Source: Reyranella sp. (GTDB taxonomy: Bacteria > Pseudomonadota > Alphaproteobacteria > Reyranellales > Reyranellaceae). From it: a stretch of DNA of 64,000 nucleotides. Positions within the stretch are counted from its first letter, which is position 1, and every line of letters starts with the position of its first letter. A model generated the notes under the pieces. The model was given only the letters and a program-made list of their open reading frames with translations. It was not told where the DNA came from and ran no database searches. Below are positions 12,144-15,107 of this stretch, one piece after another. The stretch covers positions 1 to 64,000 of the forward strand of contig JAQSDW010000018.1 of NCBI GenBank assembly GCA_029946105.1, read 5' to 3'. The position numbers were made by a program, and so were the translations under genes.

Positions 12144-13481
12144 CTACAAAGCGCAGGTGCGGAAACCGGCCAGAACGTCGTTGCGGTCGGGCGTGAAGAA
12201 ATTGCGATATCCAGGCCGGGCGATGCGCGCGCTGGTCGCCCAGCACCCGCCGCGCAGGACCTTGCGCGTGCCGAACCACGGCTCGGAATAGTCCTTGTAG
12301 GGATCGGCGGCGAAGCCCGCGAAGGGCAGGAAGTCGGACGCGGTCCATTCCCACACATTGCCGATCATCTGACGGCAGCCGAACGCGCTGTCGCCGTCGG
12401 CACAGGCGGCGACATCGACCGGCCCATCGAAGGCATAGTCGAGATTGGCGCGCACGGGCGTGGGGGGCGCATCGCCCCATGGCCAACGGCGGCAGGCGTC
12501 GGACAGACGCGTGGCGCCAGCCGCCGGCTCGCCGATGGCGGCCGCTTCCCATTCGGCTTCGTTCGGCAAACGCCGGCCGGCCCATCGGCACCACGCCTCG
12601 GCCTCGAACCAGGTGACGAACACGACCGGCTGATGTGGCGCCAGCTCCTCGACGGTGCGGTAGCGCCGGACGCGCCACGCGCCGTCACGCTTGGGCTGCC
12701 AGTAGACGGGGCGCTCGGCCTTGCGGCTCTTTCGCCATGCCCAGCCTGCATCGCTCCAGAATTCCCGGATGCCATAGCCGCCGGCCTCGATGAAGGCCGC
12801 GAACTCGGCATTGGTCACCGGTGCGCGGGCGATGCGGAAGGGCGCCAGCACCGTCTCGTGCGCCCATTTCTCGTTGTCGAAGACGAAGCCGTCGGCCGCG
12901 CTCGATCCCAGCCGCCACGGTCCACCCGGCAGGGCAGCGTCTCCCGGCAAGGCGCCTTCATCGGGTCGCCCGGCACCAAGTGCGGCAGGGCTGCCGAGCC
13001 CGCTGGGCGGTGCGTAAGAAAGGGTCTGGCGCGAATAGGTGAGCGCCTCGACATGCATGTCCTCATGACGGATCGCGAGTTCGTAGAAATAGCGCGCGCC
13101 ATCGTCGATCGTGCCGCCGAGCAAATCCTCCTGACGCGCCAGCACGTCGGCCAGGTAGCCGAAGGTGCCGGCACGGTCCGGCAGATCGAGCCGCCAGCGC
13201 GTGGCGTGCGCCACCGCGCTCGAATCCCACAGCCGGTCGCCGCGTTCGATCAGAGGGTCGCGGCCATGGGTATGGCGCAGTGTCCAGTATTCGTGGAACC
13301 AGCCGACGTGGCCGATCTCCCAGAGCACGGGATTGACGATGTCGATCTGCGGCCCCATCAATTCCGACGATGACAGTTCTTCCGTCAAGCGCCGGGTGCG
13401 ATGACGGACTTCGCGCAGTTGCGCCACCAGTTCGACCGCGGTCGCTCCGCTGGTCGGCCGTTGCTCATGGGTGTGGTCCAT
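12144..13481 (-). CDS. senA: selenoneine synthase SenA (EgtB-like non-haem iron enzyme)
   Basis: 445 residues: DinB-like N-terminal domain plus C-terminal formylglycine-enzyme-like (FGE-sulfatase) domain, the EgtB architecture. Iron ligands expected from EgtB are visible as His58 (EIGHVGW) and the HxxxH pair His139/His143 in IRHEDMHVE. In the SenA family the enzyme joins hercynine to a selenosugar using oxygen. I choose SenA over EgtB because the N-terminal LMGPQIDIVNPVLWEIGHVGW pattern is SenA-like and, decisively, the neighbour is a SenB-type glycosyltransferase while EgtA/C/D are absent. Start ATG 13481 has AAGGA 8 bases upstream. Its start codon overlaps that of senB on the other strand. 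Confidence 0.8.
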   Translation of the reverse strand: MDHTHEQRPTSGATAVELVAQLREVRHRTRRLTEELSSSELMGPQIDIVNPVLWEIGHVGWFHEYWTLRHTHGRDPLIERGDRLWDSSAVAHATRWRLDLPDRAGTFGYLADVLARQEDLLGGTIDDGARYFYELAIRHEDMHVEALTYSRQTLSYAPPSGLGSPAALGAGRPDEGALPGDAALPGGPWRLGSSAADGFVFDNEKWAHETVLAPFRIARAPVTNAEFAAFIEAGGYGIREFWSDAGWAWRKSRKAERPVYWQPKRDGAWRVRRYRTVEELAPHQPVVFVTWFEAEAWCRWAGRRLPNEAEWEAAAIGEPAAGATRLSDACRRWPWGDAPPTPVRANLDYAFDGPVDVAACADGDSAFGCRQMIGNVWEWTASDFLPFAGFAADPYKDYSEPWFGTRKVLRGGCWATSARIARPGYRNFFTPDRNDVLAGFRTCAL

Positions 13482-14436
13482 GAGGATCGTCCTTATCACA
13501 CCCACGGGTCCCACTTCACGCACCGGCAACCGCGTGGCCGCCTCGCGCTGGGCGCGTATCCTGCGCCGCCTCGGCCATCGCGTGCGCATTGCGGCGGAGT
13601 ATGACGGCCGGCCGGCCGATCTGATGGTGGCCGTTCATGCCTGGCGGAGCGCTGCCGCCATCGAGCGGTTCAAGGCTGAATTTCCCGAACGTCCGGTGAT
13701 CCTGCAACTCAGCGGAACCGACATCTATCACTACATCGACAGCGACCCGGTACCGACGCTTCGTTCGATGGAACTGGCCGACCGGCTGGTGGCGCTGAAC
13801 GATCTTGCGCGGCGCATCGTGCCCAGGCGGTTCCGGTCGCGCCTCAGCGTCATCCACCAGTCGGCGGCCCGTTTGCCCCATCCGCGACGGCCCAGCGCGC
13901 GCGCCGTGATCGTCTCGGTGATCGGCCATCTGCGCGACGTAAAGGATCCGCTGCGCGCGGCCGAGGCGGCACGCCTGCTGCCGGCCGAAAGCCGCGTGCG
14001 GATCGAACAGGCGGGCCGTGCCTATACGCCTGAATGGGCGGCCCGCGCGGAGGCCGAGATGAAGGCCAACCCGCGCTACTTTTGGCGCGGTGACGTGCCG
14101 GGTGCGGCCGTCCGCCGGCTGCTGGCGCGCAGCCACGCCATGGTGATCTCGTCGCTGAGCGAGGGCGGCGCCAACGTGATTTCCGAGGCCGCCGCCGCCG
14201 CCGTGCCGGTGTTGGCCTCGCGCATCGACGGCAATGTCGGGCTGCTCGGCGCCGACTATCCCGGCTACTTTCCGGTCGGCGACACCGAAGCGCTCGCCCG
14301 CCTGCTACGGAAACTCGAGGATGAGCCGCGCTTTGTCGCGCGGTTGAGCAAGGCGCTCGCACGGCGCGCGCCGCTGTTCCGGCCCGCCCGCGAGAGCGCC
14401 GCGTGGCGGCGTCTGCTCGCCTGCCTGCGCTCCTAG
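13480..14436 (+). CDS. senB: selenosugar synthase SenB (glycosyltransferase fold)
   Basis: 318 residues, GT-B fold without an N-terminal membrane segment. It begins MRIVLITPTGPTSRTGNR, followed by WARILRRLGH and a DLMVAVHAWRSA stretch. The LSGTDIYHYID motif and the late SLSEGGANVISEA motif (nucleotide-sugar site of GT4-like enzymes) are kept. SenB forms a C-Se bond between a UDP-sugar and selenophosphate to make the selenosugar used by SenA. ATG 13480 shares two bases with the senA ATG on the opposite strand; no good ribosome site is seen before it. senC (SelD-like selenophosphate synthetase), the third member of known sen clusters, is not in the window. Confidence 0.8.
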   Translation: MRIVLITPTGPTSRTGNRVAASRWARILRRLGHRVRIAAEYDGRPADLMVAVHAWRSAAAIERFKAEFPERPVILQLSGTDIYHYIDSDPVPTLRSMELADRLVALNDLARRIVPRRFRSRLSVIHQSAARLPHPRRPSARAVIVSVIGHLRDVKDPLRAAEAARLLPAESRVRIEQAGRAYTPEWAARAEAEMKANPRYFWRGDVPGAAVRRLLARSHAMVISSLSEGGANVISEAAAAAVPVLASRIDGNVGLLGADYPGYFPVGDTEALARLLRKLEDEPRFVARLSKALARRAPLFRPARESAAWRRLLACLRS

Positions 14437-15107
14437 GGCGAGTTGCCGGCGCCCACCGTACCGACCGGCAGGCCCGCCGCTTTCCATTCCGGAAAACCGT
14501 CCTCCAATCGCCTGATGTCGTAGCCCTTGGCGCGCAGCGCGGCGACCGCCTCGAACGACAGCACGCAGTAGGGACCGCGGCAGTAGGCCACGATCTGCGT
14601 GTCCTTCGGCAATTCGGCGAGACGCCGCTCCAGATCGGCAAAAGGAATGTTGAGCGCGCCCGGCAGGTGGCCGAGCGCGAACTCGTCTTCGGGGCGCACG
14701 TCGAGCAGCACTGCGCTGCCGTCGTCGAGCCGTTTTACAAGGGCTTCGCGCGAAACCGGTTCCAGTGAGTCGAGCCGGTTGAAGTAGTCCGAGACGATGC
14801 CGCGCACTTCGGCACGGCTGTGCTCGGCATAGCGCCTGAGCGCGCCCAGCAGCTCGATCACTGGCCCGTCGCCCAGCCGGTAGAGCATCCGCTTGCCGTC
14901 GCGGCGCGAGCGTACGAAACCCACCCGCCTCAGCACTTGAAGGTGCTGCGAGGCATTGGCCAGCGAGAGGCCGGTGAGCTGGGCCAAACGCTCGACCGAG
15001 CGCTCGCCCTGGGCCGCATGTTCCAGCAATTCCAGGCGATTTCCCTGGCCCAGCACGCGGGCCAGCTCGGCGAACTGCTGGAAAATCTCGGACTTGGCGT
15101 TTGTCAT
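14433..15107 (-). CDS. ArsR-family regulator fused to a rhodanese domain
   Basis: 224 residues. Residues 1-100 are a winged-helix ArsR domain (recognition part SLANASQHLQVLRR). Residues 115-220 are a rhodanese domain with active-site loop CRGPYC (Cys176 to Cys181). No Cys occurs in the DNA-binding half, so the classical ArsR/SmtB metal sites are absent. Sensing through persulfide or other oxidation at Cys176/Cys181 is plausible (inference). It is divergent from the MFS gene at 15175, and a 30-bp palindrome overlapping its start codon is the likely operator for both. It is convergent with senB, overlapping by four bases. Confidence 0.85.
   Translation of the reverse strand: MTNAKSEIFQQFAELARVLGQGNRLELLEHAAQGERSVERLAQLTGLSLANASQHLQVLRRVGFVRSRRDGKRMLYRLGDGPVIELLGALRRYAEHSRAEVRGIVSDYFNRLDSLEPVSREALVKRLDDGSAVLLDVRPEDEFALGHLPGALNIPFADLERRLAELPKDTQIVAYCRGPYCVLSFEAVAALRAKGYDIRRLEDGFPEWKAAGLPVGTVGAGNSP

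Follow-up and report, generated by a model that had tools for sequence, protein, structure and literature searches.

Overlapping start codons in a divergent senA–senB pair of the Reyranella lineage, a predicted selenoneine module

The DNA analysed was a stretch of 64,000 nucleotides from a Reyranella sp. (bases 1–64000 of contig 18; hereafter the window), taken from an assembly whose 242 contigs total 5,620,756 bases. Two genes for selenium metabolism were found head to head in it, a putative selenoneine synthase gene, senA, on the minus strand and a putative selenosugar synthase gene, senB, on the plus strand (table 1). The senA start codon is the complement of CAT at 13479–13481 and the senB ATG occupies 13480–13482, with bases 13480–13481 shared by both; the tetranucleotide CATG reads as ATG on either strand. 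The pair is regarded, with good confidence, as a genuine selenoneine module of a Reyranella-lineage bacterium, with regulatory signals predicted within the coding sequence of both genes. This reading builds on family membership, residues, unlinked partner genes and a two-base overlap conserved in the lineage, all of them established at the level of sequence.

Table 1. Features of the senA–senB locus, in window coordinates.
Feature	Position	Strand	Basis or remark
senA, selenoneine synthase (EgtB/FGE-type non-haem iron enzyme), 445 aa	12144..13481	-	models, residues, tree
senB, selenosugar synthase (GT-B glycosyltransferase), 318 aa	13480..14436	+	model, solved chains, conserved residues
CATG with both start codons	13479..13482		sequence; lineage comparison
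senA Shine-Dalgarno AAGGA, 8 nt from ATG	13490..13494	-	inside senB codons 4-5 (GTC CTT)
senA codons 9-60, slowed synonymous change	13302..13457	-	23-178 nt upstream of senB ATG
Inverted repeat CCGTCA-N14-TGACGG	13382..13407		within senA codons 25-34; may be an operator or a leader hairpin
TTGACG, candidate -35 of senB promoter	13333..13338	+	no clear -10 seen; function inferred

The window SenB was scored at 397.7 bits by TIGR04348 (cut-off 300), a cut-off exceeded in 41/76 genomes of the order. Four solved sequences matched it at E 0.001 or better, all of SenB type (best E 1.1e-52), and the peptide LSGTDIYHYID was confirmed in the translation. Residues were compared in the numbering of the Variovorax enzyme according to PMC10891094. 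Catalytic Lys158 corresponded to K155 of the window protein, the contacts N20, H58, R61, R155 and E231 to N17, H53, R56, R152 and E228, respectively, and E239 to E236, most contact residues being retained. His235 was replaced by Asn232, giving EGGANV instead of EGGAHV; EGGANV was present in 14/21 aligned SenB rows, and EGGAHV was reported for a mainly betaproteobacterial set (PMC10891094). Weighing against the identification, Ala20 and Ser78 take the places of Thr23 and Thr83 of the Variovorax enzyme; Thr23 contacts the sugar, and losing it by itself was moderately harmful (PMC10891094). These Variovorax-type details (Thr23, Thr83 and EGGAHV), absent from the window protein, were not taken as defining.

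The window SenA exceeded the cut-offs of NCBIfam models NF041186 (494.9 versus 420 bits) and TIGR04373 (94.9 versus 71) and stayed below that of the EgtB model TIGR03440 (323.2 versus 360). For tree and residue comparison, 61 proteins were hand-picked for spread from a larger extracted set. The iron ligands named in the first-pass annotation, His58, His139 and His143, were confirmed as histidine in all 61 rows. Column 142 was Met in 40/40 proteins (32/32 head-to-head SenA, 5/5 betaproteobacterial-type SenA and 3/3 of the ovoselenol-type enzyme OvsA) and Gln in 14/14 EgtB, and the careful tree placed EgtB in a separate clade with 100/100 support. An ordinary sulfur-handling EgtB next to an unrelated GT4 glycosyltransferase would have the iron-enzyme superfamily and the GT-B fold in common with the sen proteins, and the ergothioneine genes egtB–egtD further share hercynine as substrate by the known pathway; such a pair is nevertheless barely credible here, given the EgtB score below cut-off, the separate EgtB clade, Met142 in place of Gln, a second, EgtB-type gene adjoining egtD on contig 72 of the same assembly, and a SenB that passes its model with the catalytic residues kept. 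The naming of the genes as senA and senB by the first-pass annotation was thus borne out by the family models, the failed EgtB cut-off and the tree.

OvsA, an EgtB-like enzyme that places selenium on histidine on the way to ovoselenol, is a closer rival, and several results point towards it. In phmmer comparison the window SenA was matched at 300.9 bits by OvsA, the best solved chain, at 269.1 bits by EgtB and at 251 bits by solved SenA. Model NF041186 accepted one of three OvsA proteins, that of Vreelandella utahensis (L214:7114–8457; 427 versus 420, the others reaching 411 and 415), which matched solved OvsA over all 448 residues at 1072.5 bits. All SenA, the Variovorax type included, fell on one side of a branch apart from OvsA in 37% of 200 bootstrap trees, a weak split, so that the phylogeny proposed as a check set EgtB apart firmly and left SenA and OvsA without firm separation. 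SenB, moreover, is also present in OvsA loci L209 and L214. The SenA model alone was rejected as proof of identity, since one OvsA also passes, and for the same reason a residue comparison was made.

At columns 398, 427 and 428 the window protein carries Y398, N427 and F428. The same Y, N and F were found in 14/14 EgtB, Y, N and F/Y in 5/5 betaproteobacterial-type SenA, and M, Q and A in 3/3 OvsA; among the 32 head-to-head SenA, three have T at column 427. Of the two OvsA sequences deposited, one has M, Q, A and the other Y, N, F, the latter presumably an engineered variant. The Y/N/F set may read hercynine, to judge from its being shared by EgtB and SenA, and with M142 the window enzyme would therefore combine a selenium-type with a hercynine-type site. 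The TIGR04373 score of the window protein likewise stands apart from the 44.5–52 of the three OvsA proteins; the ovoselenol methyltransferase domain (ovoA_Cterm) was matched in 0/76 genomes of the order at E 1e-20; egtD is present in the assembly; and the OvsA gene lies on the senB strand in 2/3 loci, and in the third on the opposite strand but approximately 3 kb off. The ovs cluster of Vreelandella (Halomonas) utahensis resembles the window pair in its EgtB-like selenoxide synthase and SenB and differs in the M/Q/A residues and in gene orientation (L209, L214); fused SelD lies close by in both L209 and L214, an ovoA_Cterm methyltransferase accompanies OvsA in L209, and a similar-looking frame was seen in L196. 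An ovoselenol enzyme in the window is accordingly judged improbable, and selenoneine is the best prediction for the product of the pair.

A selenoneine route in which SenB supplies a selenosugar and SenA joins it with hercynine was described for Variovorax (PMC9814287, PMC10702425 and PMC10903977), and selenoneine and ovoselenol biosynthesis are also covered in PMC13188914. In the window lineage, SenB would convert selenophosphate and a uridine diphosphate (UDP) sugar to the selenosugar, and SenA, with iron and oxygen, would attach the selenium to hercynine, the resulting selenoxide breaking down to selenoneine. The hercynine would be supplied through egtD and the selenophosphate by a SelD joined to an oxidoreductase domain, neither gene being linked to the pair. 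As the first-pass annotation had stated for the window, senC and egtD do not adjoin the pair; the genome search it proposed located both functions: egtD on contig 72 (45495–46406; 383.8 versus 290.9 bits) and selD on contig 111 (G000:C111, 7379–8293; 297.7 versus 125 bits). The selD match makes up the C-terminal portion of a protein of 740 residues, the N-terminal portion being the oxidoreductase domain TIGR03169; the fused protein scored below the cut-off of the fusion_not_SelD model (507.7 versus 700). None of the contrary outcomes listed beforehand was found, namely SenA grouping firmly with EgtB, SenB grouping with ordinary GT4 enzymes, or a genome without selD and egtD.

Loci with senB outside the Reyranella type were collected for comparison (86 loci, in which some genomes occur twice, e.g. 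L104 and L187, and some loci are truncated by contig ends). A selD match was found in 66/86 of these and the N-terminal oxidoreductase part in 56/86, which links fused-type SelD to sen clusters; in only 1/17 named Reyranella-type loci (3–13 kb) was selD present. A point against the module is that SelD over cut-off occurred by hand count in 37/41 senB carriers of the order and in 31/35 non-carriers, with four carriers lacking it, and SelD was for this reason rejected as a marker of senB carriers. No match to selA was obtained in the window's assembly. Its absence was rejected as proof that SelD serves only selenoneine, because selB sits at base 38 of contig 80 and selA was probably lost at the contig edge; selU was matched in 0/76 genomes of the order at E 1e-20. 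In 6/41 carriers selA lies on the same contig as senB at less than 17 kb, in one of them 184 bases away (contigs G058:C38, G057:C21, G045:C128, G016:C87, G035:C56 and G031:C54), and in Reyranella soli (L154) a formate-dehydrogenase-like frame was recognized by reading beyond senB. Fused selD is often convergent to senB and on the senA strand (L101, L104, L107, L163 and others), an arrangement in which selD and senA might be one operon broken up by senB on the opposite strand. A relative of a putative selenate-type ATP-binding cassette transporter binding protein was present in 25 of the 86 loci (L205:4752–5621, L163, L217 and others; TIGR04553 in L205). An RraA-like protein, identified by reading, lies near the fused selD of the window assembly (L130:7168–8013) and directly beyond senB in a Methylobacterium (L182:6957–7724).

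The head-to-head layout, which the first-pass annotation had called unusual, proved ordinary for sen clusters: a senA homologue was in reach in 68 of the 86 loci and lay upstream of senB on the opposite strand in 66 of them. Both exceptions are OvsA loci (L209 and L214), and L196, among the 66, is an OvsA locus too, with the gene approximately 3 kb away. The sen cluster of Variovorax paradoxus (senA, senB, senC) is matched in the window assembly by proteins passing the SenA and SenB models and by a SelD-type protein. Loci whose SenB is near the Variovorax type (L112, L113, L114, L115 and L119) have senA opposite and upstream of senB and selD downstream on the senB strand, whereas the window lineage rarely has selD in the cluster, the window assembly has its selD fused to an oxidoreductase domain, and the window start codons overlap. 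Only this two-base overlap is special to the layout.

To follow the overlap, 49 Reyranella-type loci (30, plus 17 [L144 to L160], plus L137 and L143) were reduced to 37 distinct pairs by removal of identical ones; they cover 31 of the 41 genomes with SenB over cut-off, with at least one locus each. Reyranella soli NBRC 108950 and a number of Reyranella bins are among the named relatives, and near-identical genes also occur in bins labelled Rhizobium sp., Asaia or Rhodospirillales. The overlap of the two ATG codons on opposite strands, proposed in the first-pass annotation, was kept in 37/37 loci, the window and the more distant L160 included, with the senA frame intact in 36. A frameshift interrupts senA in L156, and in L136, which is outside the set, an internal stretch of senA is missing; in both loci senB is matched along almost its full length. 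An ATG–ATG overlap of this kind is a single CATG and requires only a C preceding the senB ATG, and that base was C in 37/37 loci. Outside the lineage, 61 distinct divergent pairs were compared; senA could start in frame at the exact place in one of them (L204), where a Met eight codons further in fits the homologues better; some in-frame overlapping start existed in 14/61, and the nearest senA start left a gap in 50/61. The two-base overlap marks the Reyranella lineage and is more than chance.

Divergent overlaps call for caution. They occur far less often than expected, though more often in Caulobacter (PMC2174442), and account for approximately 1% of well-characterised overlaps; all 75 examined divergent overlaps longer than 60 bp were start errors (both PMC2478687), and the senA and senB starts were checked for that reason. 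The senB start coincided with that of its homologues. For senA, a start further downstream with a spurious overlap would accord with the frequency of start misprediction and with a GTG at codon 19 of the window gene. No ATG, GTG or TTG, however, was found between senA codon 2 and the conserved RPTSG peptide in 36/36 loci, which excludes a senA start immediately downstream; the position of the next start codon varies. At senA codons 8, 12 and 15 the amino acid was kept while the codons changed 10–13 times; these positions are therefore coding, and translation begins before them. The sequence AAGGA precedes the senA ATG by 8 nucleotides in 30/36 loci. An overlap produced by annotation is, on these grounds, very improbable.

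Constraint within the coding sequences was analysed in 36 of the 37 pairs, the frameshifted L156 being excluded. The AAGGA, a putative Shine-Dalgarno sequence of senA for which the remaining 6 loci had no such match, is complementary to a stretch within senB codons 4–5. At senB Leu5 the codon was CTT in 36/36 loci, against 86/1185 (7%) of the other senB Leu codons, with 0 synonymous changes where 8.4 were expected, and it was the sole unchanged column among 29 Leu columns. Among 79 distinct non-Reyranella senB genes, position 5 was Leu in 55 and CTT in 10 of these. By a simple word search, senB itself was without a Shine-Dalgarno-like sequence in 32/36 loci. The relative synonymous rate of senB codons 2–20 was 0.79 (179/5000); the lowest senB window, codons 61–75 (18/1000 shuffles), shows the strongest slowing in the gene and lies far from the overlap.

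In senA, codons 9–60 had a relative synonymous rate of 0.72, as low a value being obtained in 2/5000 column shuffles, and of the 182 four- or six-fold columns 7 did not change at all, 5 of them within codons 22–49. Controls for the same codons gave 1.00 for senB, 1.08 for egtD (from 30 of 70 genomes over cut-off) and 1.07 for non-Reyranella senA (53 divergent genes, with synonymous sites likely near saturation). Unusual codons were fixed, namely TCA at Ser37 in 33/34 and CGT at Arg26 in 31/36 loci. A perfect 6-bp inverted repeat was present in 29/36 loci, elsewhere in the region in one of these (L027), and its region folded with z values of −2.28 and −2.90; TTGAC was found in 36/36 loci. Codons 9–60 of senA are likely the place of the senB promoter or leader, and together with the ribosome site in senB this suggests that each gene carries signals for the other. 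By the geometry of the overlap, a promoter of one gene must be located within its partner or on the far side of it. The claim of the first-pass annotation that each promoter must lie inside the other gene holds in this wider form and is partly backed by the sequence constraint.

Set against these signals is a reading in which spacer loss left a single CATG that, the ribosome site apart, has no role in regulation, and in which the senA constraint reflects protein or codon-usage effects. It is favoured by the modest requirement of one C before the senB ATG, and the evidence for regulatory signals has weaknesses of its own. The lowest 15-codon synonymous window of senA was matched in 522/1000 shuffles in a scan-wide test and is not significant; codons 2–20 alone were not slowed (0.92); and the range of codons 9–60 was chosen after a first look. 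The inverted repeat arose in 112/5000 synonymous recodings. No site was reported in the region by a promoter scan, no Rfam family matched, and the consensus fold contained no compensatory change in 38 predicted pairs. The fixed unusual codons (senB Leu5, senA Ser37 and Arg26), the lack of slowing in senB, egtD and non-Reyranella senA, and the retention of the overlap throughout the lineage argue in the other direction. Neutral compaction thus has a real chance of being correct, somewhat short of even.

If the overlap does carry regulation, as the module with dual-coding signals supposes, closing of the gap would have forced the regulatory signals into coding sequence, with the senA ribosome site in senB codons 4–5 and the senB promoter or leader inside senA codons 9–60. 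Facing promoters and complementary 5′ mRNA ends would then create an excludon-like state, by likeness to the excludon or noncontiguous operon, in which neighbouring genes have antisense-overlapping transcripts (PMC7154746); the 5′-end overlap is, in the present case, predicted from geometry. The first-pass annotation expected coupled expression, but such facing promoters and complementary ends could equally well interfere. A more specific proposal is a two-way switch, with the senB promoter and an operator (CCGTCA-N14-TGACGG) in senA codons 20–50, the senA ribosome site placed as above, senB translated without a Shine-Dalgarno sequence, and 5′ pairing of the two mRNAs; transcription interference and antisense pairing would then keep the enzyme that makes a reactive selenosugar in balance with the one that uses it. 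This proposal is speculative and is considered rather unlikely in its full form.

Beyond senB, a convergent gene (14433–15107, minus strand) shares with it the CTAG at 14433–14436, which holds both stop codons; senB thus shares a palindrome with its neighbour on either side, CATG at the start and CTAG at the stop. By reading, the convergent gene encodes an ArsR-type helix-turn-helix domain and a rhodanese, and it was without an NCBIfam match at 1e-20. It was rejected as a part of the module, directly adjoining senB in 2/24 related loci (L146 and L148) and lying approximately 2.5 kb away in 2 more. Extra senA/senB fragments were found in the window assembly on C50, C104 and C237 (L134, L132 and L133, respectively), with protein identity of 78–89% to the window pair; they are at contig ends or inside contigs and are broken copies or derive from a related strain.

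What is new here is an arrangement of known families, head-to-head sen genes being already known. No description of a senA/senB start overlap was found in a limited literature search, and no paper in the library searched treated Reyranella and selenoneine together. Acceptance of a known OvsA at 427 by NF041186, an equivalog model with a cut-off of 420, means that database SenA names may include ovoselenol enzymes; in its present form the model fails to separate selenoneine from ovoselenol enzymes cleanly, whereas three residues appear to do so. Predicted selenoneine biosynthesis is extended to much of the Reyranella group, in accordance with the distribution of SenB in the order (41/76 genomes), and the locus provides a well-supported conserved divergent overlap with predicted dual-coding signals, open to test by simple recoding.

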